A stretch of DNA of 64,000 nt, taken from contig NZ_QTQI01000008.1 of NCBI RefSeq assembly GCF_003853705.1, positions 124,001 to 188,000 on the forward strand. Reading direction: 5' to 3'. This DNA is from Burkholderia sp. Bp8992. GTDB lineage: Bacteria > Pseudomonadota > Gammaproteobacteria > Burkholderiales > Burkholderiaceae. The position numbers and the translations under genes are program-made. Below are positions 11,864-28,826 of the stretch, in pieces. Numbering within the stretch: position 1 is the first letter of the stretch; every line of letters starts with the position of its first letter. The notes under the pieces are model-generated. The model ran no database searches and was not told the origin of the DNA. It saw nothing but the letters and a program-made list of their open reading frames with translations.

Positions 11864-14176
11864 TCAGATCTTCGCGGTGAGCGTGATCCCGACCGTGCGC
11901 GGATCGCCGTACAGCGCCGGATACGCGCCGTACGACGGCAGCAGCTCGAGCTTCTTGTAGACCTTGTTCGTCAGGTTCGTCACGTAGCCCGTCACGATGT
12001 ACTTCTGGTTCGGCGTCGTGTACGACACGTGCGCGTTCAGCACCGTATAGCCGCCTTGCCAAAGCTGCGGCATCGTCTGGCGCGTCGCGCTGAAGTACTC
12101 GTGGCTGCGGTAGTTCACGTCGCCGCCGGCCGTCAGCGTGCCGAACGACACCGGCACGCGATAGTCGAAGCCCGCATTCAGCGTCGTGTGCGGCGAACGC
12201 GCGAACGAGTTGCCGACGGCCGTCGGCACGTAGCGGAACTCGGTGTAGCGCGTGTTCAGCATCCCGAGGTTCGCGAACAGGTACAGGCTGTTGACCGGCT
12301 GCGCCTTCAGCTCCAGCTCGAAGCCGTCCGCGCGCCCCTGCCCCGCATTCGACAGCGTCGACACCGGCGGCCCGCCCAACGGGTTCGGCGCGAGCGCGAA
12401 CACCTGGATGTCGCGATAGTCGTAGTGGAACACGCTCGCGTTGACGATCAGCCGCTTGTCGAACCATTCGCTCTTGATGCCGGCTTCGTAATCGGTCAGG
12501 TACTCCGGCGACACGGTCGACAGCGTGCTTTGCGTATACGCATTGCCGTTGTAGCCGCCCGAACGGAACCCGCGTGCGTAGCGGAAATACGCGCGCACGT
12601 TGTTGCTGAGCGCATATTCGGGCGTGAGATCCCAGGTCGGCGCGCGCCACGTGTTCGTCTGGTTCTGCCGCGCGCTGACCGCGAGCGGCGACGACACCGA
12701 CGACGGCGCCCACCAGCTGTTCGGATCGCTGAACGTCACGTTGCCGGTATCCTGCAGCCCGGTCAGGTTGATGGTCTTGCGCTCGATCGTATAGCGCAGC
12801 CCGCCCGTCACGTTGAAGCGATCGGTGAACCGGTACTTCACGCTGCCGAAGATCGCCGCGCTCTGCGTGTGCTGCGTGAGGTCCGTCAGGTGGTAGTACG
12901 CGGGCGACGGCGAACCCGGTAGCCCGCCGCCGGCGCCCTGCTCGGCCAGTTGCTCGGTAAACAGGTGCGTGCCGACCAGCCAGCTCAGGCGGTCGCCCTG
13001 CGGCGATTCGAGCCGGAATTCCTGCGAGAACTGGCGGCTCGACAGGCGGTCATGCGAACGCGCCGCATCGAACGGCGAATAGTCCTCGTCGTCCTGGTAC
13101 CAGCGATGCAGCCCTTCGAACGCGGTGATCGACGTCAGCGACACCGCCGGGTTGATGCGCCAGTGCGCGGTCAGCGACGTGCCCCACGACGAGATGTGAT
13201 CGCTCGACGGCGCATTGAGCGACACCGTGTACGGATCGCTCGCCCCGACGAAGCCGAACTGGTTCGCGCCGCCGCGTCCCGCGCCTTGCGCGTGCCACGC
13301 ATTGCCGCCGCCCGTGTAGTTGCGGCCGTGGATGTTGAACAGGAAGTCGGTGTCCGACGTCGGCACCGCCAGCACCTGGAAGCGCACCGCGTTGTCGTGG
13401 AAGCCGCCGAAGCGCCCGTGCTGAACGGTGTTCGTGTAGAAGCTGTCGGCATTCTCGTGATACACCGACACGCGCGCGGCCAGCACGTCGTTCTTGCCGA
13501 TCGGGCCGCCGATCGCGGCTTCCGCGAGCCGGCTGTTGTACTGGCCGAGCCCGAGCTTGCCGTAGCCGCTCACGTCGAAGGTCGGCTTCTGCGACGTGAT
13601 GCTGAGCGCGCCGCCGACGGTATTCTTGCCCCACAGCGTGCCCTGCGGCCCGCGCAGCACTTCGATGCGATCGAGGTCGAACAGCGGAAAGCCCTGTCCG
13701 AACACGCTGTTGATGTACACGTCGTCGAAGTACACGCCGATCGGGCTCAGCGACAGGTCCGACGGATCGTTGCTGCCGACGCCGCGCAAGAACCAGCGCG
13801 GCCGTTCGCGGCCCTCGGTCGATTGCCCGGTGAAATTCGGTACGTACTTCGTCACGTCGTTGATCACGCGCAGTTCGTTGTTCTTGATCGCATCGCCGCT
13901 CAACGCGCTCACCGCGACCGGCACGTCCTGGATGCTCTCCTTGCGCCGGCGCGCCGTCACGGTCACCGTGCCGAGGTTCGTTTCGCGTATGGCCGCGCCG
14001 CGGTTCGCCCGTACCGGCTTCGGCGCAGCCGCGGCTGTGTCGTCCGGTGCCTGTTGCGCCGGCTTCGCGTCCGGCGCCGCCGTCGCCGCGCCGTCCTCTG
14101 CCCACGCCGGCAACGATACGGCGCCGCCCGTCAGCAGTCCCCCCAGCGTGGTGACGATGAGTTTTTTCCTGAACAT
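11864..14176 (-). CDS. TonB-dependent outer-membrane receptor
   Basis: The protein is 770 residues from the ATG at 14176 (MFRKKLIVTTLGG), with a signal peptide ending near PAWAED. After a low-complexity Ala/Pro linker comes the TonB-box region and plug (LGTVTVTARRRKESIQDVPVAVSALSG, then VINDVTKYVPNFTGQSTEG and EVLRGPQGTLWGKNTVGGALSITSQKP). The 22-strand barrel fills the rest, ending VGITLTAKI. It imports a bulky or scarce substrate using the TonB-ExbBD encoded 2.5 kb upstream on the same strand. A sigma-54 promoter at 14236-14252 lies directly in front. Context suggests an organosulfur compound rather than a siderophore. Confidence 0.93.
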   Translation of the reverse strand: MFRKKLIVTTLGGLLTGGAVSLPAWAEDGAATAAPDAKPAQQAPDDTAAAAPKPVRANRGAAIRETNLGTVTVTARRRKESIQDVPVAVSALSGDAIKNNELRVINDVTKYVPNFTGQSTEGRERPRWFLRGVGSNDPSDLSLSPIGVYFDDVYINSVFGQGFPLFDLDRIEVLRGPQGTLWGKNTVGGALSITSQKPTFDVSGYGKLGLGQYNSRLAEAAIGGPIGKNDVLAARVSVYHENADSFYTNTVQHGRFGGFHDNAVRFQVLAVPTSDTDFLFNIHGRNYTGGGNAWHAQGAGRGGANQFGFVGASDPYTVSLNAPSSDHISSWGTSLTAHWRINPAVSLTSITAFEGLHRWYQDDEDYSPFDAARSHDRLSSRQFSQEFRLESPQGDRLSWLVGTHLFTEQLAEQGAGGGLPGSPSPAYYHLTDLTQHTQSAAIFGSVKYRFTDRFNVTGGLRYTIERKTINLTGLQDTGNVTFSDPNSWWAPSSVSSPLAVSARQNQTNTWRAPTWDLTPEYALSNNVRAYFRYARGFRSGGYNGNAYTQSTLSTVSPEYLTDYEAGIKSEWFDKRLIVNASVFHYDYRDIQVFALAPNPLGGPPVSTLSNAGQGRADGFELELKAQPVNSLYLFANLGMLNTRYTEFRYVPTAVGNSFARSPHTTLNAGFDYRVPVSFGTLTAGGDVNYRSHEYFSATRQTMPQLWQGGYTVLNAHVSYTTPNQKYIVTGYVTNLTNKVYKKLELLPSYGAYPALYGDPRTVGITLTAKI

Positions 14177-14235
14177 CGATGAGTCATCCTGTTTGATCGG
14201 TTGAACGCACGTGCGACCTGCGCACGGGTTCTCTC

Positions 14236-14252
14236 TTGCAATTCGGATGCCA
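14236..14252 (-). promoter_or_regulatory. Sigma-54 promoter of the TonB-dependent receptor gene
   Basis: On the minus strand the sequence reads TGGCATCCGAATTGCAA. The GG of -24 and the GC of -12 are separated by exactly 10 bases as sigma-54 requires. It lies about 60 bp before the ATG at 14176. Degenerate copies of the island's inverted repeat occur upstream: TGTTGC at 14302-14307, and TGCTTG-TCAC-GCAACA at 14337-14352. Confidence 0.75.
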
Positions 14253-14368
14253 GCATCGACGAGCCCGTCGTACGGGCCTTCCGGCGCACGTGCGGTGCCG
14301 GTGTTGCTGCATGCGCATCTGTGAAGGGAAGCAAACTGCTTGTCACGCAACACCGGCGCCGAAAATCG

Positions 14369-15586
14369 TCAGGACAGCTTGGCAGGTATCTGCTGCGTTG
14401 CCTCACGGCGCCGATGAGCGATCCGCAGCGCGAGCGCAACCAGCACGACGACGGGCAGCCAGCACAGAAACATGGCCTGCAACCCGACGATCGGCACGAG
14501 CGCACTGCCGGCCAGCGGGCCGCAGAACGCACCGGTCATCGACGCGAGGTTGTAGAGGCTCGACACCTGGCTCTTGTCGGCCGGGTGGCGGCCGAGATGC
14601 TGCATGTTGACCAGATGCAGCAGCGACGACCCGGCACACAGCGCGGCGAGCCCTGCGCCGACGATCCAAGCGTCATGCGCGAGGCCGAGCGCGACCAGCC
14701 CGGCCACGCCGCCCGCGAGGCTGAAGGCATGGCAGCGGCGCGCCGTCATCCGCTGCGCGGCATGCCCGAGCCCGAACAGCGCGATCACCGCGACGACGCC
14801 CTGCAGGGTCAGCAGCGCGACGGCGCCCGATTGCGACAACCCGAGAGACTGGATGGCGAGCACGACGGTATAGGTGCCGGCGAGCGAGCGCGTCGCGCTG
14901 TTCACGGCTTCCAGCGCAAGCTGCTCGCGCACATCGCGGCTCCAGGCAAGCGCGAGCAACGCACGCAGGCCGCCGGTTGCGGGTTGCGCGCCGCGCGGCG
15001 GCGGCTGCGCGTCGCCGAGCAGCACCCGGCTGAACCACGCCATGCCCGCGAAGCTCGCCGACGCCGCGCAGAACGTCGCGACCGCGCCATGTGCGCCGAT
15101 CAGCCAGCTCGCGAGCCACGGCCCGGCCATGCCCGTTCCGACCGACATCGCCGCGCGATACCAGCCTGCGCGGGCGAGGCCGATCCGCGCGAGACGCGCG
15201 AGGAACACGCCGTTGATCGAGACGATCCGGAACGGAATGCACAGCCCGATCAGCGCCTGCGTGAGCGCGATCAGCGGCCATGCACCGGTGAACGGCACGA
15301 CGAGATTGAGCAGCATCGGCCCCATGCTCGCGGCGAAATACACGCGCCGCGCGCCGTAGCGCGCGACCAGCAGCCCGGCCGGCAACGTCATCAGCGCGAT
15401 GCCGAGCGGCTCCATCGCGGCGATGATGCCGAGCCGCGCGCTGTCGACGCCGAGCGCGAGCGCATACAGCGTCGTCGCGAGCTGCGCCATGCTGATCGTC
15501 GTGCCGCTGGCGAGCGCGAGCAGCATGAAGCCGCCGGTGAAGCGCTCGCGCCGCCATGCGTCGGCGACGCGCGCCGGCGTACTCAC
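14369..15586 (-). CDS. MFS transporter
   Basis: The protein is 405 residues if started at the GTG at 15586. That start overlaps the stop of the preceding desulfinase-like gene (GTGA, 15583-15586), indicating coupling. About 12 hydrophobic segments are present, with an MFS loop 2-3 motif (AGLLVARYGARRVYF) and a central cytoplasmic loop near residue 205-225. The ligand is unknown. As the last gene of the LLM-TonB operon it may move the organosulfur substrate or the desulfurised product across the inner membrane. Confidence 0.85.
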   Translation of the reverse strand: MSTPARVADAWRRERFTGGFMLLALASGTTISMAQLATTLYALALGVDSARLGIIAAMEPLGIALMTLPAGLLVARYGARRVYFAASMGPMLLNLVVPFTGAWPLIALTQALIGLCIPFRIVSINGVFLARLARIGLARAGWYRAAMSVGTGMAGPWLASWLIGAHGAVATFCAASASFAGMAWFSRVLLGDAQPPPRGAQPATGGLRALLALAWSRDVREQLALEAVNSATRSLAGTYTVVLAIQSLGLSQSGAVALLTLQGVVAVIALFGLGHAAQRMTARRCHAFSLAGGVAGLVALGLAHDAWIVGAGLAALCAGSSLLHLVNMQHLGRHPADKSQVSSLYNLASMTGAFCGPLAGSALVPIVGLQAMFLCWLPVVVLVALALRIAHRRREATQQIPAKLS

Positions 15587-16647
15587 CGCGACAGCGTCGC
15601 GATGCCGTCGAGCGCGCGCCGGTCGATCCACGCACGCACGTCGAAGTCGGCCGGCAGGAACCGCCAGTCGACCAGGAAGCGCTTGAAATCGTCGAGCGCG
15701 GCGATCGACGCTTCGTCGAGATCCGTACGCAGCCGCCGGTGCACGTCGGCGCCGTACGCAAGCCGCAGCCAGTCGTGGCCCGAACCCGTCTCGCGACCGA
15801 GATAGCCGAGCACTTCCTGCTCGTGCTCGCGCGCCCAGCCTTCGACGTCGGTCACGCGCGCAAGGAAGCGGCTGACGATGTCCGGATGGCGCTCGAGCGT
15901 CGACGCATTGACGGTCAGCGGCCGCGGCGAGCCGTTGTTGATGCGGATCTGCGGATCGGGATGAAAGCCGATGTCGACGACCGGCTGCGCGCCGATCAGG
16001 TGCGCGGTTTCCAGCCCGAGCGAGCCCTTCACGTAGATCGCGTCGACGTCGCCGCGCACGAGCGCGGCCGCCTCCGCCGCATAGAGCCGCCGGCTCGACA
16101 GGCTCGCGGGATGGCTGAACGCCGCGTCGCGCGTCGCCGGCGTCGACACCGGCGCGCGCAGGTTCGATGCCGGGACGTCGATCCATTCGACATCGCCGGG
16201 GCCGAGCCCGTCGAGCGACAGCGCGCTGACGAAGCCGCGCAGCGCGGCCGCGCGGAAGATGTCGATGCGCTCGCCGTCGCGCCGCGGCAGGCCGATGCGG
16301 CGCCCGCGCAGGTCCTTCGGTCGCGTCAGGCCGGCTTCCGGCAGCGCGACGATCGCCTGCGCCTCGTCGACCCAGGTCAGCGCGACCACCCGCGTGTCGG
16401 CGCCGGCCGCGCGTGCCCACAGCGCGGGAATGCTGCCGCCCTGCCGGAACGCGTTGTCGAGCGAATGATCGACGTGCGCGTGATGCAGCGCCGCGTGCTG
16501 GCTTTCCTGCAGCGCACGCACGGTGATGCCGTCGCCGGCGAATTCGCTGTCGAGCCAGCCGAGATGCGCGGCGATGCCGAGCGGCGTCGGCACCGGACAG
16601 CGCGTGTACCAGATCGACTGAACGTTGTGTGAAGCCGTGGTGCTCAT
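15583..16647 (-). CDS. DszB-like desulfinase / NMT1-THI5-fold protein, copy A
   Basis: The protein is 354 residues with no signal peptide, so despite its binding-protein fold it should be cytoplasmic. It resembles DszB, the 2-(2-hydroxyphenyl)benzenesulfinate desulfinase that releases sulfite. The N-terminal WYTRCPVPTPLG matches the DszB block around catalytic Cys27 (here Cys17). His58, Arg68 and Gly71 in HVDHSLDNAFRQGG occupy the positions of DszB His60, Arg70 and Gly73 with identical spacing. The middle has LRGRRIGLPRRDGERIDIFRA and AIYVKGSLGLETAHL. The three catalytic positions are therefore present. It sits between exbD (35 bp upstream) and the overlapping MFS gene. Confidence 0.8.
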   Translation of the reverse strand: MSTTASHNVQSIWYTRCPVPTPLGIAAHLGWLDSEFAGDGITVRALQESQHAALHHAHVDHSLDNAFRQGGSIPALWARAAGADTRVVALTWVDEAQAIVALPEAGLTRPKDLRGRRIGLPRRDGERIDIFRAAALRGFVSALSLDGLGPGDVEWIDVPASNLRAPVSTPATRDAAFSHPASLSSRRLYAAEAAALVRGDVDAIYVKGSLGLETAHLIGAQPVVDIGFHPDPQIRINNGSPRPLTVNASTLERHPDIVSRFLARVTDVEGWAREHEQEVLGYLGRETGSGHDWLRLAYGADVHRRLRTDLDEASIAALDDFKRFLVDWRFLPADFDVRAWIDRRALDGIATLSR

Positions 16648-16681: not shown

Positions 16682-17092
16682 TCAGCCGCGCGGCGCGGTC
16701 AGCACCGACAGTCGCGTGATGCCCGCGTGCTCGATCGCGGCCATCAGTTTCGCGACGGTGCCGTACGGCACGTGCTCGTCGGCCTGCAGATCGAGCGCGA
16801 CGTCGGGCCGGCCCGCTTTCAGCGCGGCCAGCTCGGCCGGCACCGTGGCGAGCGCGACCGCGCGCTTGTCGAGATACACGACGCCCTTCGCGTCGACGCT
16901 CACGGTCACGTTCGGCTTGCGGTCGGCCGGCGCGGTGGCGACGGTGTTCGGCAGGTTCACGTGCACCGCGTTGTTCAGCAGCGGCGCGGTGACGATGAAG
17001 GCGACGAGCAGCACGAGCATCACGTCGACGAGCGGCGTGATGTTGATTTCGCTGAGCACGTCGTCGTTGTCGGAAGAGGACGAGAAAGCCAT
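16682..17092 (-). CDS. exbD: ExbD biopolymer transport protein
   Basis: The protein is 136 residues. It has a single N-terminal membrane segment containing the proton-path Asp (INITPLVDVMLVLLVAFIV) and a periplasmic domain ending near LSVLTAPRG. The ATG at 17092 overlaps the ExbB stop by one base. With ExbB and TonB it converts proton-motive force to drive the outer-membrane receptor. Confidence 0.95.
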   Translation of the reverse strand: MAFSSSSDNDDVLSEINITPLVDVMLVLLVAFIVTAPLLNNAVHVNLPNTVATAPADRKPNVTVSVDAKGVVYLDKRAVALATVPAELAALKAGRPDVALDLQADEHVPYGTVAKLMAAIEHAGITRLSVLTAPRG

Positions 17093-17808
17093 TATGCGAA
17101 GGCCTCCTGGCGGGTGTCGCCGGCACGGCGTGCCGGTGCGGCAGCGGGCACGGCCGCCGGCACGCGGAAGCCGGCCTTCTGCGCGAGCGTGACGAAGTCG
17201 GTCGCGAACGCGTCGAGATCGGCCGACGCAGCCTTCACGCGGCGCACGAAGAAGTTGTATGCGAGCACGGCCGGCACCGCGACCGCGATGCCGATCCCGG
17301 TCGCGACGAGCGCCTCGCCGATCGGCCCCGCGACGACGTCGATGCTCGCCGATGCGCTGTGCGTGATCGCGGTCAGCGCGTGGATGATGCCGAACACGGT
17401 GCCGAACAGGCCGACGAACGGCGCGGTGCTGCCGATCGACGCGAGCACCGCGAGCCCCGCTTCCTCGCGCCGGCGCGCGTTGTGGATCTGCTGCCGCAGA
17501 TGGCGTTCGAGCAGGTCGTGACGGCTCCAGCTGTGTTCGAGATCGTGCGCGCTGCTCTCGTCGGCGCGCCGCAGCGCGTCGAAGCCCGTCGCGGCGAGCT
17601 CGCCCACCGGGCTGTTCGCGCCGTCGAGCGCGGCCGCGTCGTGAAAGCTGTTCGCGGCCCAGAACGCGCTGACGTAACGCCGGTTGCGCGCGCTCGAGCG
17701 CAGGCTCTGGATTGCCTTCACGACGATCAGCGTCCATGTGACGACGGAGAAGACGACGAGCAGCCAGAGCGCGCCCTGGACGATGAAGGTGGTCGGGATA
17801 CCGTTCAT
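17092..17808 (-). CDS. exbB: ExbB MotA/TolQ/ExbB proton channel protein
   Basis: The protein is 238 residues from the ATG at 17808 (MNGIPTTFIVQG). Three membrane segments are visible: near residues 8-28, ~125-150 (STAPFVGLFGTVFGIIHAL, the conserved channel signature) and ~160-190 (GEALVATGIGIAVAVPAVLAYNFF). It works with ExbD and TonB. It lies between tonB and exbD in the long minus-strand operon. Confidence 0.95.
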   Translation of the reverse strand: MNGIPTTFIVQGALWLLVVFSVVTWTLIVVKAIQSLRSSARNRRYVSAFWAANSFHDAAALDGANSPVGELAATGFDALRRADESSAHDLEHSWSRHDLLERHLRQQIHNARRREEAGLAVLASIGSTAPFVGLFGTVFGIIHALTAITHSASASIDVVAGPIGEALVATGIGIAVAVPAVLAYNFFVRRVKAASADLDAFATDFVTLAQKAGFRVPAAVPAAAPARRAGDTRQEAFA

Positions 17809-17849: not shown

Positions 17850-18671
17850 TCAGCCCAGCTTGAAATCGATCGGCACGTTGACCCAGCCGTCGACGGCTTC
17901 GTCGCCGCGCTTCGCGGGCACGAACGTCCAGCGCTTCACGGCGGCCACCGCCGCGTTGTCGAGTACGCGGCGGCCGCTGCTCGTGCGGACGTCGACGGAA
18001 TCGGGCGTGCCGCTCGCGAGCACGTGCACGCGCAGCACGACGCGCCCTTCCCAGCCCTGGTCCTGCGCGAATGCCGGATAGTCGGGCGCCGGGTTGCGCA
18101 GGTACGCCGCGTCGCCGATCGGTGCGGTTTCGCGCACGGGTGCGGCGGGCGTTGGCGCCGGAGCCTGGGCCGCCGGGGCGGCAATGGCCGGCGCCGTCGG
18201 CACGGGTGCGGTGTCGCGCGACGCCTGCGGCACCGCGACCGGTGCGGGCGCCGGATGCGGAACGGCCGCGCGCGGCGTCGGCGGCTTCGGCGAACTCGGC
18301 GCCTGCTTCAACGGCTTCGGCGGCACGACCGGCGGTGGCGGATGCGCGGCTTGCGGCAGCGGCTCGGGCGGCCGCGTCAGCTCCACCGTCATCGGCAGCG
18401 GCCTTGGCGGCTGCACGGGCGGTGCGGCAGGTGCGTGCGCAACCAGCAGCGCGACGCCCGCATGCAGCGCCGCGACGGCGAGCGCAATCGCGCCCGCGCC
18501 GCGCCATCCGCTCGCCGCTGCCGGCCGCGCGTCAGCGTGCGCAGACGGCGCCACCGAAGCTGGCCGCGCAACCACCGCAACTGCAGCAACCGCAGCAGCC
18601 GCGCGCGGCGCAGCACGCGCCGCATGCCGGCGCGCCGGCGGTGCGCCGTATTCGATCGTCAGCCCTGTCAT
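17850..18671 (-). CDS. tonB: TonB energy-transducing protein
   Basis: The protein is 273 residues. An unusually long Ala/Arg-rich cytoplasmic N-terminus (~55 residues) precedes the membrane anchor (AGAIALAVAALHAGVALLVA). A long Pro-rich periplasm-spanning segment follows (PPVQPPRPLPMTVELTRPPEP, PPPPVVPPKPLKQ), then the C-terminal TonB domain (PDYPAFAQDQGWEGRVVLRVHVLASG ... RWTFVPAKRG). It carries energy from ExbBD to the receptor. It is encoded between two desulfinase-like genes, so it is probably dedicated to this uptake system rather than to iron. Confidence 0.93.
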   Translation of the reverse strand: MTGLTIEYGAPPARRHAARAAPRAAAAVAAVAVVARPASVAPSAHADARPAAASGWRGAGAIALAVAALHAGVALLVAHAPAAPPVQPPRPLPMTVELTRPPEPLPQAAHPPPPVVPPKPLKQAPSSPKPPTPRAAVPHPAPAPVAVPQASRDTAPVPTAPAIAAPAAQAPAPTPAAPVRETAPIGDAAYLRNPAPDYPAFAQDQGWEGRVVLRVHVLASGTPDSVDVRTSSGRRVLDNAAVAAVKRWTFVPAKRGDEAVDGWVNVPIDFKLG

Positions 18672-18704: not shown

Positions 18705-19751
18705 CTACGCGACCCACGCATGGCGGTGCCGGTCGATCTGCGTGAACGGCGCCGGATCGATCCACGCGCGCGCGTCGAAATCGCGTTCGAGAAACCCCCA
18801 CTCGACGAGGAAATCCTTGAACGCGACCAGGCCGTCGATCGACGTCGGCGCGAGCCCCGTCTCCAGATGGCGATGCACGTCCGCACCGTACGCGTAGCGC
18901 ACCCATTCGTCGGACGCGCGCGTTTCGCGGCCGATATAGGCGACCGTCTCCGCCGGATGGCGCGCAGCCCAGTCGCCCGCGCCGACCACGACCGACAGGA
19001 AGCGGCTCACGAGATCGGGGCGCGTGTCGATCAGCGCGCGGTCGACGGTCAGCGTGCGCGGCGTGCCGTTGCCGATCCGCACCAGCGGATCGGGATGCGC
19101 GCCGAGATCGATGACGACCTGCGCGTCGATCAGGTGCACGGTTTCCAGCCCGGCCACGCCCTTCACGAACACTGCGTCGACGTCGCCGCGCACGAGCGCC
19201 GCGATCTCGATTCCATACTCGTGCGGGCCGCGCGTGAACGACGCGGGCCCGGTGCGGCGCTCGCGCGTGTCGGGCAGGTCGACCCATTCGGCATCGCCGT
19301 GGCCGAGCCCTTCCAGCTCGAGCGCGCTCAGGAAGCCCTTCAGCGCGGCGGCCCGCCAGAAGTCGATGCTGATCGCATGGCGCGGCAACCCGAGCCGCCG
19401 GCCGCGCAGATCCCGCGCGGTGCGAATGCCGCGCTCCGGCAACGTGACGATCGCCTGGAATTCGTTGGTCCACGACAGGCCGATCACGCGCGTATCGGCA
19501 CCGCGTGCCCGCGCCCACAGCGCGGGAATGTTGCCGCCCTGCCGGAACGAGTGCGGCAGGCTGTGATCGAAGTGCGATTCGCGCTTGTCGGCATCGGCCA
19601 TCTCCTGCAGCGAATTCAGCACGATGCCTTCCGGCCCGAACTCCTCGTCGAACCAGCCGCGATGCACGGCGATGCCGAGCGCGGTCGGCACCGGGCAGCG
19701 CGTGTACCAGAGTGCGTCGCAGGCCGTGGCCTGCGCTGCGAGTGTCGTCAT
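18705..19751 (-). CDS. DszB-like desulfinase / NMT1-THI5-fold protein, copy B
   Basis: The protein is 348 residues with no signal peptide. It is a close paralogue of copies A and C. The block LWYTRCPVPTALG supplies Cys19, and HFDHSLPHSFRQGG supplies His60, Arg70 and Gly73, which match DszB His60/Arg70/Gly73 even in numbering. Later blocks include LRGRRLGLPRHAISIDFWRA and AVFVKGVAGLETVHL. It should release sulfite from a sulfinate in the cytoplasm. It follows the SsuD-like monooxygenase by 50 bp, which fits oxygenation followed by desulfination. Confidence 0.8.
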   Translation of the reverse strand: MTTLAAQATACDALWYTRCPVPTALGIAVHRGWFDEEFGPEGIVLNSLQEMADADKRESHFDHSLPHSFRQGGNIPALWARARGADTRVIGLSWTNEFQAIVTLPERGIRTARDLRGRRLGLPRHAISIDFWRAAALKGFLSALELEGLGHGDAEWVDLPDTRERRTGPASFTRGPHEYGIEIAALVRGDVDAVFVKGVAGLETVHLIDAQVVIDLGAHPDPLVRIGNGTPRTLTVDRALIDTRPDLVSRFLSVVVGAGDWAARHPAETVAYIGRETRASDEWVRYAYGADVHRHLETGLAPTSIDGLVAFKDFLVEWGFLERDFDARAWIDPAPFTQIDRHRHAWVA

Positions 19752-21044: not shown

Positions 21045-21060
21045 AGCACGCGGTATGCCA
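21045..21060 (-). promoter_or_regulatory. Sigma-54 promoter of the LLM-tonB-exbBD operon
   Basis: The minus strand reads TGGCATACCGCGTGCT: the -24 GG and -12 GC are 10 bases apart. The -12 element is GTGCT instead of TTGCT, so it is a weaker match than the divergent promoter. It is about 70 bp before the start codon at 20974. Confidence 0.6.
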
Positions 21061-21208: not shown

Positions 21209-21254
21209 TGCTGCCCGCGCAACAGCACCCGATGCGACTGTTGCTCACGCAACA
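21209..21254. promoter_or_regulatory. Two activator-site candidates (TGTTGC-N4-GCAACA)
   Basis: Copy 1, TGCTGC-CCGC-GCAACA (21209-21224), has one mismatch between arms. Copy 2, TGTTGC-TCAC-GCAACA (21239-21254), is perfect and extends by one more pair to CTGTTGC/GCAACAG. Their centres are 30 bp apart, three helical turns, so bound dimers would lie on the same face. They sit ~150 bp from one sigma-54 promoter and ~90 bp from the other, the normal range for enhancer-binding proteins. Confidence 0.7.
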
Positions 21255-21329: not shown

Positions 21330-21345
21330 TGGCCCGGAACTTGCA
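21330..21345 (+). promoter_or_regulatory. Sigma-54 promoter of the desulfinase-C/ABC operon
   Basis: TGGCCCGGAACTTGCA carries the invariant GG (21331-21332) and GC (21343-21344) separated by 10 bases, with a perfect TTGCA -12 element. It lies ~70 bp upstream of the ATG at 21414. Confidence 0.8.
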
Positions 21346-21413: not shown

Positions 21414-22490
21414 ATGACAGACAGGCCCGATTCGTCATCGGACAAGCAGCAGACGTTCTGGTACGCCCGATCGCCCGTGCCGACGCCGCTCGGCATCGCC
21501 GTGCACCTCGGCTGGCTCAACGGCGAGACGTCGGCCGACGGCGTCGCGATCCGCTCGCCGCGCGGCGCCACGCGGCACGACGTGTCGTCGATCAGCGATC
21601 ACACGCTCGCGCAGTCGTTCCGCCAGGGCGGCAGCATCCCCGCGATGTGGGCACGCTCGAGCGACGCGAACACGCGCGTGATCGGGTTGTCGTGGGTCGA
21701 CGAATCGCAATTGATCCTCGCACGGCCCGAGTCGGGCATCCGCTCGGTGAAGGCGTTGCGCGGGCGCCGGATCGCGATCCCGAGCCGCCCCGACGACCGC
21801 ATCGACATCTTTCGCGCATCGGCGCTGCGCGGCTTCGTCAACGCATTGAGCCTCGACGGACTGACCACGCGCGACGTCGAGCTCGTCGACGTGCGCGCAC
21901 GCACGCTGCAGGCCGTCGGGCCCGCACGCGCGGCAGACCTGTTCGCGTCGCCGCATGGCTTTTCGAGCCGCGCGCTGTACGCAGCCGAGGCCGGTGCGCT
22001 GCTGCGCGGCGAAGTCGACGCGATCTACGTGAAGGGCTCGACGGGCCTCGAGATCGCGCAGTTGATCGGCGCGCACGTCGTGATCGACTTCGGTTTCCAT
22101 CCGGAGCGCTCGATCCGCAACAACAACGGCACGCCGCGCCCGCTGACGGTCAACGCGGACGTGCTCGCGAACCACCCGGACATCGTCGCCGGCTTCCTGA
22201 AGCTCGTGGTCGCCGCCGGCGAATGGGCGAGCACGCATCCCGACGAAACCGCGCACTACGTGGCCGGCGAAACCGCATCGTCGATCGACTGGGTACGCGC
22301 CGCGTACGGCAACCAGCTGCATCGCCACCTCGGCGTCAATCTGGATGACGAATCGGTCGCCGCGCTCGACGAGTTCAAGACGTTCCTGCACGACCACGGC
22401 TTCCTGAAAGCCGACTTCGACGTCGCCGACTGGATCGACCCGCGCCCGCTCGCCGACGTGCTGCGGCCGTCGCTGCAGAAACGCGCGTGA
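21414..22490 (+). CDS. DszB-like paralogue C, lacking the catalytic Cys and His
   Basis: The protein is 358 residues from the ATG at 21414 (MTDRPDSSSDKQQ), without a signal peptide. It is clearly homologous to copies A and B across the whole length. The key block reads FWYARSPVPTPLG, so the catalytic Cys is Ser20. The DszB His60 position is Ile60 (SISDHTLAQSFRQGG), while Arg70 and Gly73 remain. It therefore cannot use the DszB Cys nucleophile. It may bind substrate, act as a sensor or chaperone, or catalyse another reaction. It is the first gene of the plus-strand sigma-54 operon, 31 bp before the ABC binding protein. Confidence 0.8.
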   Translation: MTDRPDSSSDKQQTFWYARSPVPTPLGIAVHLGWLNGETSADGVAIRSPRGATRHDVSSISDHTLAQSFRQGGSIPAMWARSSDANTRVIGLSWVDESQLILARPESGIRSVKALRGRRIAIPSRPDDRIDIFRASALRGFVNALSLDGLTTRDVELVDVRARTLQAVGPARAADLFASPHGFSSRALYAAEAGALLRGEVDAIYVKGSTGLEIAQLIGAHVVIDFGFHPERSIRNNNGTPRPLTVNADVLANHPDIVAGFLKLVVAAGEWASTHPDETAHYVAGETASSIDWVRAAYGNQLHRHLGVNLDDESVAALDEFKTFLHDHGFLKADFDVADWIDPRPLADVLRPSLQKRA

Positions 22491-22521: not shown

Positions 22522-23628
22522 ATGAAACACACGCTCTCCCTCGCCTCGCTGCGCCGCCCGCTGCGCGCGCTGCTCGCCGCGCTGCCGCTGGCCGCCGCGT
22601 CGCTCGCGGCACCGGCCGTCCATGCGCAGGACGCGCCCAAGGTCGTGCGCATCGCCGTCGTCGCGTATTCGAGCGGCGGCAAGACGCAATACGCGGGCGC
22701 CTCCGCGCTGATCGACGCCGACAAGTCGCTCGAGAAAGCGCTCGCCGCAAGGCACGTGCAGCTGCAATGGGTGCCCGTGTCGACCGCGGCGGTCGGCACG
22801 CTCGTCAACGAGGCATTCACGAACGGCAGCATCGATTTCGCGGGCTACGGCGACCTGCCGTCGGTCGTCGTCAACGCGTCGGGCACGCACACGCGGCTGA
22901 TCGTGCCGGGCGGCGCCGGCAGCAACACGTATCTCGTCGTGCCCGCCGGCTCGACCGCGAAGTCGATCGTCGACCTGAAGGGCAAGCGCATCGCGCTCAA
23001 TCGCGGCCGGCCGTGGGAAGTCACGTTCGGCAAGCTGCTTGCCGAGAACGGGCTGAAGCTGTCCGACTTCAAGATCTACAACCTCGATCCGCAGGCCGGC
23101 GCGGCGGCCGTCGCGGCCGGTCGCGTCGACGGCTTCTTCACGCTGTCCGACGCGTACTCGCTCGTCGATAAGCAGGTCGGCAAGATCATCTGGTCGACCA
23201 AGACCGCACCCGACGACTGGAAGATGCGCGCGGAACTATGGGCGTCCGACGATTTCGTGCGGCGCTACCCCGACATCACGCAGCTCGTCGCGACCGCCTA
23301 CGTGCGCGCCGCGCACTGGATCTCGCAGCCGCAGAACCGCGATGCGTACGTGAAGATCCTGAGTGCGTCGGGCCAGCCCGAAAGCGTCGTGCGCCGTGAA
23401 TACGCGGACGAATCGACGCCGTGGAAAGAGCAATGGACGCCGCTCTTCACGCCGGCGCTGACCGGCCACTACCGCGACGTCGTCGCGTACAGCCGCCAGG
23501 CCGGCCTGACGTCCGCGCCGGTCGACGTGAACGCGCTGCTCGCGCCGACCTTCGTGTCGACCGCGCTCAAGCAGCTCGGCCTCGACGGTTACTGGCGCGC
23601 CGACGCCGCGCGCGTCGCGAGCCGCTGA
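22522..23628 (+). CDS. ABC transporter periplasmic substrate-binding protein (SsuA/sulfonate-type)
   Basis: The protein is 368 residues with a clear Sec signal peptide (LRALLAALPLAAASLAAPAVHAQDA). The NMT1/SsuA-type domain follows: VRIAVVAYSSGGKTQY, NGSIDFAGYGDLPSVVVNASG, LIVPGGAGSNTYLVVPAGS and SIVDLKGKRIALNRGRPWEVTFGKLL. It is a genuine secreted binding protein, unlike the three DszB-like neighbours that share its fold. It overlaps the first permease by one base (TGATG). The ligand is probably an organosulfur anion, judged from context only. Confidence 0.9.
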   Translation: MKHTLSLASLRRPLRALLAALPLAAASLAAPAVHAQDAPKVVRIAVVAYSSGGKTQYAGASALIDADKSLEKALAARHVQLQWVPVSTAAVGTLVNEAFTNGSIDFAGYGDLPSVVVNASGTHTRLIVPGGAGSNTYLVVPAGSTAKSIVDLKGKRIALNRGRPWEVTFGKLLAENGLKLSDFKIYNLDPQAGAAAVAAGRVDGFFTLSDAYSLVDKQVGKIIWSTKTAPDDWKMRAELWASDDFVRRYPDITQLVATAYVRAAHWISQPQNRDAYVKILSASGQPESVVRREYADESTPWKEQWTPLFTPALTGHYRDVVAYSRQAGLTSAPVDVNALLAPTFVSTALKQLGLDGYWRADAARVASR

Positions 23629-24443
23629 TGGCGGCACGCGCCCTCACGCCGAACGGCTCGCGCGCAGTCCGCCTGCCTGGCGTCGCGCGGCTCGGCGAGC
23701 ATGCGCTGTGGTGGGTCACGCCCGTCGCATTCGCCGCGCTGTGGTGGCTCGCGAGCGCGCAGCGCTGGTTTCCGCCGCAGCTCGTCGTGCCGCCCGAGCG
23801 CCTCGCGGCGACGTTGCGCACGCTGCTCGACACCGGCGAACTGCGCGACAACCTGCTGATCACGCTGCATCGCCTCGTGCTCGGTTTCGCCATCGGCGCA
23901 ACCGGCGGCGCCGCATTCGGCATCCTGCTCGCGCGCAGCCGGCTGTTCGCCGACTATCTGCGGCCGACGTTCGACCTCCTGCGGCAAGTGCCGACGCTCA
24001 CGCTGATCCCGCTGCTGATCCTGCTGATCGGCGTCGACGAGCCGCTGAAGCTCGTCGTGGTCGGCAAGGCCGTGTTCTTCCCGGTCGCGCTGGCCGCGTA
24101 CACGGGCGTACACGATGCGCCGCGCGATCTCGTCGAAATGGCACGTCACTACGGGCTCGGCCGTTTCGCGCTGTTGCGCGACGTGCTGCTGCCGGCCGCG
24201 CTGCCGCCGCTGCTGACGGGCGTGCGAATCGCGCTCGCGCGCGCGTGGCTCGCACTCGTCGCGGTCGAGCTGCTCAGTGCCGACAGCGGGATCGGCCAGA
24301 TGATGGAACTCGCGCGGCAGATGCTGCGGCTCGACGTGGTGCTCGTCGACGTCGCGGTGATCGGGCTGATCGGCTTCGCGCTCGACCGATCGATCGCGCT
24401 CGTGCAGCGCTATGCATTGCGCTGGCAGACACCCTCGCGCTGA
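23628..24443 (+). CDS. ABC transporter permease (SsuC/TauC type), first
   Basis: The protein is 271 residues with about six membrane segments. The EAA loop reads VEMARHYGLGRFALLRDVLLPAALPPLLTGVRI, as in nitrate/sulfonate/taurine permeases. The ATG overlaps the stop of the binding-protein gene. It would pair with the second permease downstream as a heterodimer. Confidence 0.9.
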   Translation: MAARALTPNGSRAVRLPGVARLGEHALWWVTPVAFAALWWLASAQRWFPPQLVVPPERLAATLRTLLDTGELRDNLLITLHRLVLGFAIGATGGAAFGILLARSRLFADYLRPTFDLLRQVPTLTLIPLLILLIGVDEPLKLVVVGKAVFFPVALAAYTGVHDAPRDLVEMARHYGLGRFALLRDVLLPAALPPLLTGVRIALARAWLALVAVELLSADSGIGQMMELARQMLRLDVVLVDVAVIGLIGFALDRSIALVQRYALRWQTPSR

Positions 24444-24465
24444 CCCTGACTGGAACCGCTTCGGC

Positions 24466-25254
24466 ATGACCTTCGCATCCCGCGCTTTCTCGCTCGCCCC
24501 GCTGCGCCGTCGCGCACGCGGCCTCGTCGTGCCGGCCTTGCTGGTTGCCGCGTGGCAAGTCGCGTCGTCCGGCGACGCGGCCCATCAATACGCATTCGTA
24601 CCGCTGCAGCAGGTCGGCGCGGCGCTCGTCGAACTCGCCCGCAGCGGCGAACTCATGACCGATCTCGGCGCGAGCCTGCGCCGCACGACGCTCGGGCTCG
24701 GCTTCGGCGTCGCGTCCGGGCTCGTGTTCGGCGCGGCGATGGCGCGTTCGACGCTCGCACGCAAGCTCGCCGAACCGGCGTTCCAGGCGCTGCGCTACGT
24801 GCCGCTGCTCGGGCTGATTCCGCTACTGAGCCTGTGGGCCGGCACCGGCGAATTCGCGAAGGTGTTCATCATCGCGCTCGCCGCGTTCTATCCGATGACC
24901 ACCGCCAGCTTCGACGGGCTGGGCCGCGTCGATCCGCGCTATGTCGAACTCGCGCAGTCGTATCGGCTGACGCGTGCCGGCCTGTGGCGCGACGTGCTGA
25001 TTCCGGGCGCATTGCCCGACCTGTTCGCGGGCGTGCTGCAGGCCGTGCCGTTCGCGTGGATCACCGCGACCAGCAGCGAGCTGCTGTTCAATACGGGCGC
25101 CGGGGTCGGCAGCCTGATGCAGAACGCGCAGGCCGGCGCGCGCGCCGACGTGCTGCTGGTGTGTGTGCTGGGTGTGACGGCACTGGCCGTCGCGATGAGC
25201 GCGTTATGCGAGCGGGTCGCGCAGCGCGCGCTGCGCTGGCGCGATCACGCCTGA
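24466..25254 (+). CDS. ABC transporter permease (SsuC/TauC type), second
   Basis: The protein is 262 residues from the ATG at 24466 (MTFASRAFS). It has the same fold as the preceding permease with EAA loop VELAQSYRLTRAGLWRDVLIPGALPDLFAGV. The last 10 bases overlap the convergent activator gene. No ATPase gene of this transporter is present anywhere in the window, so an unlinked SsuB-type subunit would be required. Confidence 0.9.
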   Translation: MTFASRAFSLAPLRRRARGLVVPALLVAAWQVASSGDAAHQYAFVPLQQVGAALVELARSGELMTDLGASLRRTTLGLGFGVASGLVFGAAMARSTLARKLAEPAFQALRYVPLLGLIPLLSLWAGTGEFAKVFIIALAAFYPMTTASFDGLGRVDPRYVELAQSYRLTRAGLWRDVLIPGALPDLFAGVLQAVPFAWITATSSELLFNTGAGVGSLMQNAQAGARADVLLVCVLGVTALAVAMSALCERVAQRALRWRDHA

Positions 25255-26363
25255 CGGCGCAGGCGCGCGTCGGCATCGCCCGCGTCGCGCGGCTTCAGGA
25301 TGCCGAGTTGCGCGAGCCGTGCGCGCACGATGTTGCGCGACTGGTCGAGCAGGCGCGACATGCGCAGCTGGTTGTGCTCGCTGTAGTCGAACACGCTGCG
25401 GTAGACGGTGTCCTCGATGTGCTGCCACAGCGCCGGCGTGCCGAGATCCAGCAGCTCGATCACCGCGTGACGCAGCGCCTCGGTTGCTTCGGCGACGTCG
25501 CGCGCGCGGCGCGGCGGTGCGGCGGCCACGCCCGGTGAATCGGCCATGTCGGGCGCAAGCGACAGCGCCGAGAACTGCAGGTCGCCGACGTCGATCGCAC
25601 CGCCCGCGCAGATCAGCACCGCGTGGTGGATCACGTTTTCGAGTTCTCGAATGTTGCCGGGCCACGCGTGCGCGTGCAGCCGGGCGCGCGCGGCGTCGGT
25701 CAGCGTCGGCGCGCTCACGCGCAGCCGCTTCGCGTAGGTGTCGATGAAATGCTCGATCAGCGGCGCGATGTCGCCGGGCCGCTCGCGCAACGGCAGCAGG
25801 CTCAGCTTCACGACGTTGAGCCGGTAGTACAGGTCCTCGCGGAAATTGCCCGCGCGCACCGCGGCTTCGAGATTCACGTTGGTCGCCGCGACGAGCCGCA
25901 CGTCGATCTTCACGGTCTTGCGCGAGCCGACCGGCGTCACCTCGCGCTCCTGCAGCACGCGCAACAGCTTGACCTGTGCGGACAGCGGCAGGTCGCCCAC
26001 TTCATCGAGAAAGAGCGTGCCGCGATTCGCGGATTCGAACCAGCCGGGCTGGCTGTTGATCGCGCCGGTGAACGCGCCGCGTTCGTGGCCGAACAGCTCG
26101 CTTTCGATCAGCGTCTCGGAGAACGCGCCGCAGTTGACCGCGACGAACGGTCCGTCGCGGCGCTCGCTCAGCGAATGCACGAGGCGCGCGATCAGCTCCT
26201 TGCCGGTGCCGCTTTCGCCGGTGACGAGCACCGTCGCATCGCTCGGGGCGACGAGCTGGATGCGTTCGAGCAGCACCCGCGATTTGGGGTCGTCGAACGT
26301 CAGTGCCTTCGCGCGGATCGTGATCGCGTGCGAAGTCGGGTCCGGCAAGCTGAAGATGGCCAT
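25245..26363 (-). CDS. Sigma-54-dependent transcriptional activator without sensor domain (SfnR-like)
   Basis: The protein is 372 residues from the ATG at 26363 (MAIFSLPD); a longer frame to 26429 is less likely. There is almost nothing before the AAA+ domain: Walker A GESGTGKE at ~49-56, the sigma-54 contact loop GAFTGA at ~97-102, Walker B TLFLDEVGD, and an R-finger region. A Fis-type HTH ends the protein (LRMSRLLDQSRNIVRARLAQLGIL). Absence of a regulatory domain matches SfnR of Pseudomonas, which is controlled through its own expression during sulfur limitation. It probably binds TGTTGC-N4-GCAACA and drives the five sigma-54 promoters here. It lies 120 bp behind the aldolase-like gene. Confidence 0.9.
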   Translation of the reverse strand: MAIFSLPDPTSHAITIRAKALTFDDPKSRVLLERIQLVAPSDATVLVTGESGTGKELIARLVHSLSERRDGPFVAVNCGAFSETLIESELFGHERGAFTGAINSQPGWFESANRGTLFLDEVGDLPLSAQVKLLRVLQEREVTPVGSRKTVKIDVRLVAATNVNLEAAVRAGNFREDLYYRLNVVKLSLLPLRERPGDIAPLIEHFIDTYAKRLRVSAPTLTDAARARLHAHAWPGNIRELENVIHHAVLICAGGAIDVGDLQFSALSLAPDMADSPGVAAAPPRRARDVAEATEALRHAVIELLDLGTPALWQHIEDTVYRSVFDYSEHNQLRMSRLLDQSRNIVRARLAQLGILKPRDAGDADARLRRQA

Positions 26364-26452
26364 GGCACGACCGGCGTGTTGAACGGGGAAGGTTCGACGA
26401 TAGCAAGACGCGCGCCGGCCACGAACCAATTCATCGAGCTATCGGTATGACG

Positions 26453-26474
26453 GCGGCCGGATTGCGCCGGCCGC
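26453..26474. terminator. Hairpin between the aldolase-like and activator genes
   Basis: GCGGCCGG (26453-26460) pairs perfectly with CCGGCCGC (26467-26474) across a 6-base loop. It begins ten bases beyond the aldolase stop and has no T-tract, so it could attenuate read-through into the activator gene or stabilise the mRNA end. Confidence 0.45.
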
Positions 26475-26483
26475 AGCAGGGCG

Positions 26484-27164
26484 TCATGCCAGCCCGGTCA
26501 TCTTCCACTGCTGTTCGAGCGCGCCCGGCCCGAAGTCGAGCGAGCCGCCGAGCGGTTCGGCGAGCGCCTGGAAGTACGCGGCTTCCTCGAGGATCAGGAT
26601 GTACTTCGACACGTCGAGGATCGACTTGCCCCAGAACGTCGCACCGCCGTTCGCCTCGATGATCGCCGGCACGTCGGGATCGCGCCGGATCGTATCGACG
26701 ATGAAGCGCGGCTCGCCGGGACGGCGATCGACATAGACCGGGATTTCGCGGGCCCGCGTGTAGCGCGCGGCCGGCGCGTAGCGGATCGGCAGCGGACGAT
26801 GCGCGCTCGCCCATGCGCCGAGGTACGGACCGTGGACGTGAATCACGACGTCGACTTCCGGCGCCTCGCGGAACACGCCCGCGTAGCGCGGGCCGTTGCC
26901 GCCCGCGCGCGCGTCGCCGTGCAGTACGTCGCCGTCGAGCGTCACGACGACGGGCTGGATCTCCTGCGATGCAGCCCACGGGCTCGGTGCGGACAGCGCG
27001 ACGACGAGTTCCGTGCCCGGCACGCGCTGGAACGCCTGGAACGTGTTGGTCGCGGACAGCGTGCGCGTTTCCTTCAGCACACGCTCGGCCTGCGTGAATT
27101 CGCGCGTCGCGCGCTCGACGAATGCCACGAGTTCGCCGCTGTCAATGGCTTGGGTGACGGACAT
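26484..27164 (-). CDS. Class II aldolase/adducin-family protein, altered metal site
   Basis: The protein is 226 residues. The zinc-binding HxH is present (VVIHVHGPYLGAW, His109/His111). The third His of the family, normally in an N-H-G motif, is replaced: the sequence is AIIEANGGATFWG with Gly173. Activity as a normal retro-aldolase is therefore doubtful. It is transcribed from a sigma-54 promoter at 27236-27251 and is followed by the activator gene, so it belongs to the sulfur regulon. Its role could be handling the carbon skeleton after C-S cleavage, but nothing in the sequence shows that. Confidence 0.8.
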   Translation of the reverse strand: MSVTQAIDSGELVAFVERATREFTQAERVLKETRTLSATNTFQAFQRVPGTELVVALSAPSPWAASQEIQPVVVTLDGDVLHGDARAGGNGPRYAGVFREAPEVDVVIHVHGPYLGAWASAHRPLPIRYAPAARYTRAREIPVYVDRRPGEPRFIVDTIRRDPDVPAIIEANGGATFWGKSILDVSKYILILEEAAYFQALAEPLGGSLDFGPGALEQQWKMTGLA

Positions 27165-27235
27165 GAAGACGGTTTCCTTGATCGGGTGGACGGATGGACT
27201 CGCGTCGCAACGCAGCGACGCACGACCACCGGATC

Positions 27236-27251
27236 AGCAGCAATCGTGCCA
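27236..27251 (-). promoter_or_regulatory. Sigma-54 promoter of the aldolase-activator operon
   Basis: The minus strand reads TGGCACGATTGCTGCT. The -24 element TGGCACG is the exact consensus, and GG and GC are 10 bases apart. It lies about 75 bp upstream of the ATG at 27164. If the activator gene is cotranscribed, the activator would amplify its own expression. Confidence 0.7.
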
Positions 27252-27336
27252 GCCGGCGATGCAGGCGGCACAGGCCGGCCGACGCAGCGCGGGCGCGCCC
27301 GGACGACACGCGCGGTGCCGACCGGACGCGTGCGTC

Positions 27337-27352
27337 TGTTGCGGGAGCAACA
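27337..27352. promoter_or_regulatory. Activator-site candidate TGTTGC-GGGA-GCAACA
   Basis: This is a perfect 6-4-6 inverted repeat with arms identical to the site at 21239-21254, but a different 4-base spacer. It is nearly equidistant (~90-110 bp) from the two divergent sigma-54 promoters around it. Confidence 0.75.
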
Positions 27353-27461
27353 ACGTGCCGGCCGGGATTGCTGCACGACGCGCAGCCGGTGCGCGTGCAC
27401 GCCCCGCGCCGCACCGATCGATTGCCCGCCACGCCGCGTGCGGCGTATGCAACGAGCACGC

Positions 27462-27477
27462 TGGTTCGAAACTTGCA
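27462..27477 (+). promoter_or_regulatory. Sigma-54 promoter of the lipase-like gene
   Basis: TGGTTCGAAACTTGCA has GG (27463-27464) and GC (27475-27476) 10 bases apart and a perfect TTGCA. It lies ~65 bp before the ATG at 27543. Confidence 0.75.
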
Positions 27478-27542
27478 TCGTGGTCGGCCCGCGCCGGCCC
27501 TGCATGGCTGGCTCATTCGCTCTCACCGACCTCCTTCCGATC

Positions 27543-28826
27543 ATGACGCTCCTTCCCCTGCGCGGCCTCGCCGCACGCACGCTGCTCGCATCGGCGCTCG
27601 CCGTGCCTTCCGTCGTTTCGCACGCGGCTTCACCCGGCCGTGTTCCCGCACCCGATCCGTTGCAGGGCGACGGCCGCGTGTCCGCGTTCTACACATGGGA
27701 TCGCGACATTCCGGCCACGCCAGGCGCGCTGCTGCGTTCCGAACCGCTGCCCGCGACGCTCGGGCTCGCGAGCGCCGCGCGGCAACTGCGCATCCTGTAT
27801 GCATCGACCGACGGTGTCGGCGGCCACACGCCGATCGCCGTGTCGGGCGCGCTGTTCGTGCCGCGCGGCACGCCGCCGGCCGGCGGCTGGCCGATCGTCG
27901 CATGGGCGCACGGCACGTTCGGGATGGCCGACATCTGCGCGCCGTCCTGGTTCGGCCGATCGTATCGCGACGTGCGCTACCTGAATGCGTGGCTTCAGCA
28001 AGGGTTCGCGGTCGTGGCGACCGACTACCAGGGCCTCGGCACCCCCGGCCCGAACCCGCAGCTCAACAATCGTTCGAACAGCTACACGTTGCTCGACAGC
28101 GTGCGCGCGGTGCTCGGCGGCGTGCCGGGCCTCGCGAACGAAGTCGTGCTCGTCGGCCAGTCGCAAGGCGGCTCGGCCGTGATCGCGGCAGCCGGCTACG
28201 CGCCCGCCTATGCGCCCGAACTCGCGATCCGTGCGACCGTCGCGACCGGCACGATCTACAACGCTTCACGCGCCACGCTCGCATCGCTGCCGAAGTTCGA
28301 GACGACGTACCGGCGCGATCCCGAGCGCGTCGATCCGACGCTCGCGTACCAGTTCTATTCGGTGCTGTCCGCGCAGCAGGTCGACCCGTCGGTGCGCGCC
28401 GACGACGTGCTGACCGAGCGCGCGCTGCCGATTCTCGAACAGGCGCGTATCAGCTGCCTTGCATCGCTCGAGGACGACGCGGCACTTGCCCACCTCACGC
28501 ACGCGAGCACCGTGAAGCCGGGCGGCGATGCGCGGCTGCAGGCATGGTGGGACGACTTCCTGAAATACCCGACGCTGAAGATCGCCACGCCCGTCTTCAT
28601 CGGCGCGGGCGCCGACGACGGGCTGGCGCCGCTCGAACTCGCGCTCGCGAAGGATGCGTGCGCGGCCGGCACGACCGTCGAGGCGCACCTGTATGCCGGC
28701 CGCGAGCATAACGGCACCGTGAACGCATCGCTCGCCGATTCGATTCCGTTCGTGAAGCGCGTGCTGGCCGGCGAGACGATTCGCCCGGTCTGCTCGCCGG
28801 TCGCGCAGCAGGCCGTGTCGCAATAG
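27543..28826 (+). CDS. Secreted lipase / alpha-beta hydrolase (LIP family-like)
   Basis: The protein is 427 residues from the ATG at 27543; an alternative ATG at 27504 would add 13 residues before the signal peptide. The signal peptide is LRGLAARTLLASALAVPSVVSHA. The nucleophile elbow is VLVGQSQGGSAV, with an oxyanion-region WAHGTFG and a late Asp/His pair near GADDGLAPLE and AGREHNGTV. It resembles secretory lipases of the LIP family. It is expressed from its own sigma-54 promoter, so it probably frees the sulfur substrate from an ester outside the cytoplasm; this role is inference. Confidence 0.85.
   Translation: MTLLPLRGLAARTLLASALAVPSVVSHAASPGRVPAPDPLQGDGRVSAFYTWDRDIPATPGALLRSEPLPATLGLASAARQLRILYASTDGVGGHTPIAVSGALFVPRGTPPAGGWPIVAWAHGTFGMADICAPSWFGRSYRDVRYLNAWLQQGFAVVATDYQGLGTPGPNPQLNNRSNSYTLLDSVRAVLGGVPGLANEVVLVGQSQGGSAVIAAAGYAPAYAPELAIRATVATGTIYNASRATLASLPKFETTYRRDPERVDPTLAYQFYSVLSAQQVDPSVRADDVLTERALPILEQARISCLASLEDDAALAHLTHASTVKPGGDARLQAWWDDFLKYPTLKIATPVFIGAGADDGLAPLELALAKDACAAGTTVEAHLYAGREHNGTVNASLADSIPFVKRVLAGETIRPVCSPVAQQAVSQ

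Follow-up and report, generated by a model that had tools for sequence, protein, structure and literature searches.

Sigma-54-dependent control of organosulfur genes by an SfnR-like activator is already known, SfnR of Pseudomonas being reportedly a CysB-controlled sigma-54 activator of sfnFG and sfnA. The sulfate-ester system of Pseudomonas putida S-313 has a TonB receptor, SftP, together with sulfatase chemistry and a different regulator. Here, a 64,000-nucleotide window of Burkholderia sp. Bp8992 (contig NZ_QTQI01000008.1, positions 124,001 to 188,000) was analysed, which contains an island of 15 genes running from a TonB receptor to a lipase. The genes form five units: (i) the TonB receptor, (ii) an LLM flavin monooxygenase followed by dszB2-tonB-exbB-exbD-dszB1 and an MFS transporter (the llm operon), (iii) dszB3 with a periplasmic binding protein (SBP) and two permeases, (iv) a class II aldolase-like gene with a sigma-54 activator, and (v) the lipase. 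As with SfnR, the activator is sensorless and would serve organosulfur genes, whereas it belongs to a separate clade, goes with a different operator and has TonB uptake and DszB-like genes in its set. The TonB receptor for a presumed organosulfur compound recalls SftP. The LLM, SBP and permeases are nearest to SsuD, SsuA and SsuC of the alkanesulfonate system; unlike Ssu, the island proteins score under the curated cut-offs, no ATPase or flavin reductase gene was found, and a TonB receptor and sigma-54 control are added. Finally, DszB, the 2'-hydroxybiphenyl-2-sulfinate desulfinase of the 4S pathway, shares its fold and RXGG motif with the island and its Cys, His and Arg with DszB1 and DszB2, but the island has several paralogues per cluster, one of which, DszB3, lacks the Cys and the His. 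What is new is the operator, the gene set and the pseudo-desulfinase. A literature search gave no description of such a cluster or of inactive DszB paralogues, most subscription journals lying outside its coverage.

With a probability of about 0.7, the island can be read as a dedicated organosulfur-scavenging regulon whose activator would drive all five units and in which DszB3 would be a non-catalytic paralogue. The regulon itself is suggested by the placement and conservation of the promoters, the confinement of the operators to the island, the blind prediction of the receptor sites, the promoters found elsewhere in 31 of 35 slots, the loss of one promoter in a rearranged relative and an activator clade made up of dszB-cluster members only. 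Desulfurization is suggested because DszB1 and DszB2 match DszB with its Cys, His and Arg, and because the LLM is nearest to SsuD. The non-catalytic role of DszB3 is proposed from a fold nearest to the C27S-sulfinate complex of DszB and the published inactivity of C27S with substrate bound. An initial annotation had proposed a single self-amplifying sigma-54 regulon from the same promoters and palindromes; its observation was confirmed and its interpretation partly supported. The features are as follows, conservation being counted in alignments of 12 Burkholderia sequences (the window and 11 loci) over the control regions:

11864..14176, minus strand: TonB-dependent receptor (Pfam plug and beta-barrel; siderophore subfamily 172 of 223.5 bits, under the cut-off)
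14237..14252, minus strand: -24/-12 site of the receptor (GG-N10-GC; 16/16 columns invariant in 9 rows; gone in locus L041)
14305..14352, no strand: two operator-like sites, 14305 and 14337 (spacing 31-32 bp in the 9 rows retaining both)
14369..15586, minus strand: MFS transporter, likely exporter or importer (PF07690; GTG start)
15583..16647, minus strand: dszB1, desulfinase-like (DszB structure 2de2, E 2.2e-17; Cys-His-Arg retained)
16682..17092, minus strand: exbD (PF02472)
17092..17808, minus strand: exbB (PF01618)
17850..18671, minus strand: tonB (PF03544)
18705..19751, minus strand: dszB2, desulfinase-like (2de2, E 2.1e-14; Cys-His-Arg retained; no match in Pfam and NCBIfam)
19802..20974, minus strand: LLM flavin monooxygenase, closest to SsuD (profile scores; PDB 7jv3, E 2e-79)
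21045..21060, minus strand: -24/-12 site of the llm operon (present in 12/12 rows; 14/16 columns invariant)
21209..21254, no strand: paired operator, 21209 (one mismatch) and 21239 (perfect), 30 bp apart (motif search, alignment)
21330..21345, plus strand: -24/-12 site of the dszB3 operon (12/12 rows; 15/16 columns invariant)
21414..22490, plus strand: dszB3, pseudo-desulfinase (Ala/Ser/Ile for Ser25/Cys27/His60; Arg70 and RXGG retained)
22522..23628, plus strand: SBP, SsuA-like (profile matches)
23628..24443, plus strand: ABC permease 1 (PF00528)
24466..25254, plus strand: ABC permease 2 (PF00528)
25245..26363, minus strand: sensorless sigma-54 activator (PF00158 from residue 24; own clade)
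26364..26483, minus strand: conserved block 5' of the activator, candidate separate promoter (40 invariant columns running, 12/12)
26484..27164, minus strand: class II aldolase-like protein (PF00596)
27236..27251, minus strand: -24/-12 site of the aldolase-activator operon (12/12 rows; 16/16 columns invariant)
27337..27377, no strand: operator 27337 (perfect) and a conserved half-site near 27366 (motif search, alignment)
27462..27477, plus strand: -24/-12 site of the lipase (12/12 rows; 13/16 columns invariant)
27543..28826, plus strand: secretory lipase-like hydrolase (PF03583)

As expected of a sigma-54 regulon, a GG-N10-GC site was found before each unit, at 14237, 21045, 21330, 27236 and 27462. 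These are the five promoters that had been annotated, the receptor site alone having been given one nucleotide too early (14236). The -12 GC lies 63 nt from the start codon for the receptor, 73 for llm, 71 for dszB3, 74 for the aldolase and 68 for the lipase. When the five 150-nt upstream slots were shuffled 20,000 times by single bases, with a threshold of 9 of 12 consensus positions, never more than three slots were filled, and three in only 3 shuffles. It is thus placement and conservation, and not the number of matches, that set the promoters apart from chance. In the alignments that cover the three control regions, they stand out as invariant islands. The sites of llm, dszB3, the aldolase and the lipase are kept in all sequences, with 13 to 16 of their 16 columns invariant, compared with 33% and 22% of the columns outside the sites in the two gaps concerned. 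The receptor site is kept in 9 of the 10 rows that hold the receptor (the remaining two stop at a contig edge), and in these 9 rows all of its 16 columns are invariant, compared with 54% of the other columns there. The exception, L041, lacks the MFS gene, dszB1, exbB, exbD and tonB, and has its receptor gene 83 bp after dszB2; neither the receptor promoter nor the operator-like sites upstream of it are retained. This natural experiment on the receptor promoter was counted in favour of the regulon.

The same arrangement was observed in ten loci of the dszB3 clade (L091-L096, L110, L111, L115 and L126), of which only L111 carries a Burkholderia name. Of 35 upstream slots, 31 contain a GG-N10-GC site scoring 9/12 or better, compared with 1.58 expected from shuffles. 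Start codons are approximate in this count, with several sites no more than 11 nt from the start that was assumed, and the receptor of L126 matches at only 39%. The four empty slots are those of the receptor and the aldolase in L094 and L096, and both receptors have an 11/12 site that lies slightly inside the gene when the approximate start is used. At 26402 (CGGCGCGCGTCTTGCT), a possible sixth -24/-12 site, upstream of the activator, was rejected, the consensus being weak, the gap having no operator-like palindrome and the GC being gone in L040. Two further -24/-12-like matches lie near each other elsewhere in the window (41236-41251 and 41364-41379, both on the minus strand).

The palindromes TGTTGC-N4-GCAACA lie where they had been annotated, perfect at 21239 and 27337 and with one mismatch at 21209, and the spacing of 30 bp between 21209 and 21239 is the same in 12/12 sequences. 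Matches with up to three mismatches number 43 in the window versus 24.6 expected, a count reached in none of 100 shuffles, although some lie inside coding sequence. In the genomes of ten relatives (about 82 Mb), 17 of the 20 distinct perfect CTGTTGC-N4-GCAACA sites fall inside the island, and the reversed-pattern control gave 2 sites. The three perfect sites outside are at G001:C1:3037249, G014:C4:1517515 and G014:C6:1356733. Two sites before the receptor, 14337 and 14305, had been overlooked by the initial annotation; a motif model built from 21209, 21239 and 27337 in the 12 sequences, without sight of the receptor sites, ranks them 7th and 9th of 63,985 positions. Three positions outside the control regions outrank them (25951, 40126 and 28363, 4th to 6th), of which 25951 and 28363 lie within genes. 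Related elements were observed in other clusters. Before llm, L094 (7677-7722) and L096 (7663-7708) carry palindromes in pairs with a spacing of 30 bp, and the form TGGTGC-N4-GCACCA of three of the four suggests a drifted operator. A distant cluster from Methylovorus (L117), whose activator is a 67% match, has two perfect TGTTGC-N4-GCAACA sites, at 3214 and 16958, and a weaker site accompanies each of them at a distance of 32-33 bp.

The activator is a protein of 372 residues without any sensor-domain match, its sigma-54 interaction (AAA+) domain (PF00158, 239 bits) already beginning at residue 24. No Pfam helix-turn-helix model scored on it, and a C-terminal helix-turn-helix is predicted from the alignment of the protein ends. 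The annotated likeness to SfnR held for the missing sensor and is otherwise an analogy, as the sfnG-linked activator of Burkholderia is a separate paralogue with 58-62% identity. sfnG was found over its curated cut-off in 7/8 genomes and, from its positions, lies 1.2-2.5 kb from this paralogue and not at the island in all five Burkholderia genomes compared (G001, G009, G010, G019 and G021). In a quick tree of 40 rows hand-picked from search matches, the island activator belongs to a clade of 13 rows (SH-aLRT 99), all from dszB clusters, and the sfnG-linked activators fall outside; one of the six sfnG-linked rows, L157, comes from a genome without sfnG over the cut-off. The island activator is a sister of SfnR, not SfnR itself. 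An operator shared with SfnR loci was rejected, no TGTTGC-N4-GCAACA site of at least 11/12 being present in four sfnG-linked loci.

Because the activator gene lies within a controlled unit, positive feedback is possible. However, the 120-bp gap between the aldolase and activator genes contains 40 consecutive columns invariant in 12/12 sequences, exceeding the conservation of the other gaps, and no operator-like palindrome in these sequences; together, these suggest a separate ignition of the activator. Of the annotated circuit, a single sigma-54 regulon under one activator that lacks a sensor was supported; a single self-amplifying loop is probably too simple. The activator is probably started by its own starvation-responsive promoter, the aldolase promoter adding feedback. 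A CysB-type box upstream of the activator was searched for by eye and not established, and in the eight loci of other genera that could be read (L096, L098, L102, L115, L117, L126, L129 and L133) the region upstream of the activator is unlike the island promoters. In P. aeruginosa, one report describes raised SfnR1 and Msu proteins under sulfur starvation (PMC12581299).

From these elements, the following pathway can be proposed. A starvation signal would probably start the activator from its own promoter, the aldolase promoter amplifying the response, and the activator would bind the paired TGTTGC-N4-GCAACA-type sites and turn on the five units. The receptor, with its own TonB-ExbBD, would move an organosulfur compound into the periplasm, from which the SBP-permease pair, using an ATPase from elsewhere, would carry it inwards. 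The SsuD-like monooxygenase would oxidise the compound towards a sulfinate, from which sulfite would be set free by DszB1 and DszB2, the leftover molecule possibly leaving through the MFS protein. DszB3 would bind a sulfinate or a similar ligand and serve regulation, transport or trapping. Of this whole mechanism, the chemistry is the least secure. The regulon could be real and serve another nutrient or signal, such as iron or a plant compound. This is improbable: the receptor scores nearest to siderophore receptors, though under the cut-off, and the set includes a class II aldolase and a lipase, but DszB-, SsuA-, SsuC- and SsuD-like proteins share one regulon and the closest named relative of the activator adjoins sfnG.

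The product of 21414-22490 had been annotated as a desulfinase, which did not hold. DszB1, DszB2 and DszB3 all match DszB in sequence and carry the RXGG motif, the fold having been tested for DszB3 only; the equivalents of Cys27 and His60 are present in DszB1 and DszB2, and are Ser and Ile in DszB3, which is therefore probably no desulfinase. Despite this loss, DszB3 has retained its fold, its RXGG motif and strong purifying selection (dN/dS 0.06-0.11), and the gene was found in 21 of 65 Burkholderia genomes, in all 21 without a stop. Its fold is closest to that of the DszB C27S-sulfinate complex, with about 24% identity across the structural match (VIA-align). According to a published DszB study (PMC6100217), C27S is inactive and still binds the substrate. 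By alignment, the natural Cys-to-Ser change in DszB3 is the same as that used by crystallographers to freeze DszB on its sulfinate. DszB3 might therefore be a natural substrate trap acting as a sensor, reporting a pathway intermediate to the activator or the importer, a tentative proposal.

DszB3 might have kept an enzymatic function through a different mechanism or substrate, or might assist DszB1 and DszB2 structurally, but this is unlikely. Such a role would fit its purifying selection, the His retained by clade members of Massilia, Duganella and Herbaspirillum, and the mixing of Cys and Cys-less DszB forms in 32 of the 53 long loci with at least two DszB copies; the inactivity of C27S and the three active-site positions changed in Burkholderia and Paraburkholderia argue against it. 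DszB3 shares a cytoplasmic binding-protein fold with the C-terminal regulatory domains of NrtC and CmpC. In NrtC and CmpC, the regulatory domain is fused to the ATPase, whereas DszB3 is a separate, DszB-derived protein, likewise encoded beside an ABC importer. DszB3 as a transporter regulator, i.e., a cytoplasmic subunit gating the SBP-permease pair like the NrtC/CmpC C-terminal domains and without any role in transcription, seems rather unlikely. As for the non-catalytic paralogue, the family tree (200 matches and the three window proteins, reduced to 90 rows with an identity cut at 88% and a minimum length of 280 residues; quick search) places DszB3 in an entirely Cys-less clade and shows the Cys changed at least five times. 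In a separate clade from the Pseudomonas family (L074-L077, L135, L136, L142, L144 and L145), a Cys-bearing DszB adjoins a Ser-bearing copy. Further Cys-less forms, in which Gly or Arg replaces the Cys, were observed in Duganella (L119, L122 and L130) and Massilia (L129 and L133).

Several observations weigh against a sulfur regulon as proposed here. Over the whole window, the loose promoter consensus gave 19 matches versus 16.3 expected, i.e., no enrichment. One-mismatch operators, summed over four genomes, reached 115 per strand versus 84 in the reversed control, a modest excess (G001 40/28, G009 28/19, G010 20/25 and G019 27/12) that leaves a wider regulon through such sites unsupported. 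Both results are what would be expected if promoters and palindromes were chance matches in GC-rich DNA. This explanation is extremely improbable in view of placement, conservation, the confinement of perfect sites and the occurrence in other genera; for the promoters, chance origin was ruled out on these grounds, the loose pattern itself being at background. The annotated ABC operon is present as an SBP and two permeases, but no ATPase with a strict Walker A and signature motif was found in the window or in any of 14 Burkholderia/Paraburkholderia loci (L031 and L040 lay outside the scan, and so strict a motif may miss variants), compared with 20 of 25 loci of other genera. No flavin reductase appeared among the family matches of the island genes. 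The LLM scores 314.5 of 518.2 bits for SsuD and 155.4 of 382.95 for SfnG, under both curated cut-offs. In L038, the DszB1 orthologue has Leu at the His60 position. Finally, six activators of dszB clusters (L098, L102, L129, L133, L137 and L153) fall outside the island clade.

Activator orthologues with at least 94% identity were found in 11 of 61 relatives' genomes, and the closest named records of dszB1 come from species of the Burkholderia cepacia complex, such as B. arboris, B. cenocepacia, B. seminalis, B. metallica and B. lata (93-99% identity, among the best 80 of 512 stretches). The contig scan behind these records used one seed pattern, which admits no residue but Cys or Ser at the key position, and one neutral pattern; the best 80 of 512 confirmed stretches gave 71 loci. 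Overlapping gene sets were found in Paraburkholderia, Massilia, Duganella, Jeongeupia, Herbaspirillum, Methylovorus, Sphingomonas and Pseudomonas. DszB-like genes are nevertheless uncommon, being present, at E 1e-30, in 7 of 398 genomes sampled across the phylum. A 4.3-kb contig of a 'Rudaea' metagenome-assembled genome (L099) has genes 78-86% like those of the window, as in Paraburkholderia, and is possibly mis-binned. Directly after the island lies groES (28969-29259), which also follows the lipase in relatives whose loci reach that end.

On sequence evidence supported across genera, this analysis defines an operator and a sigma-54 regulon that appear to serve organosulfur scavenging in Burkholderia and its relatives. 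It also exposes a recurrent class of Cys-less desulfinase paralogues, one of which, accompanied by Cys-bearing copies, is under strong purifying selection. If DszB3 does sense or trap a sulfinate, this would show how a sensorless activator is coupled to its pathway and would yield a genetically encoded sulfinate sensor. Since the loss of the Cys from a single paralogue recurs across the family tree, sensing of sulfinates by enzyme-derived proteins would then be a repeated design.

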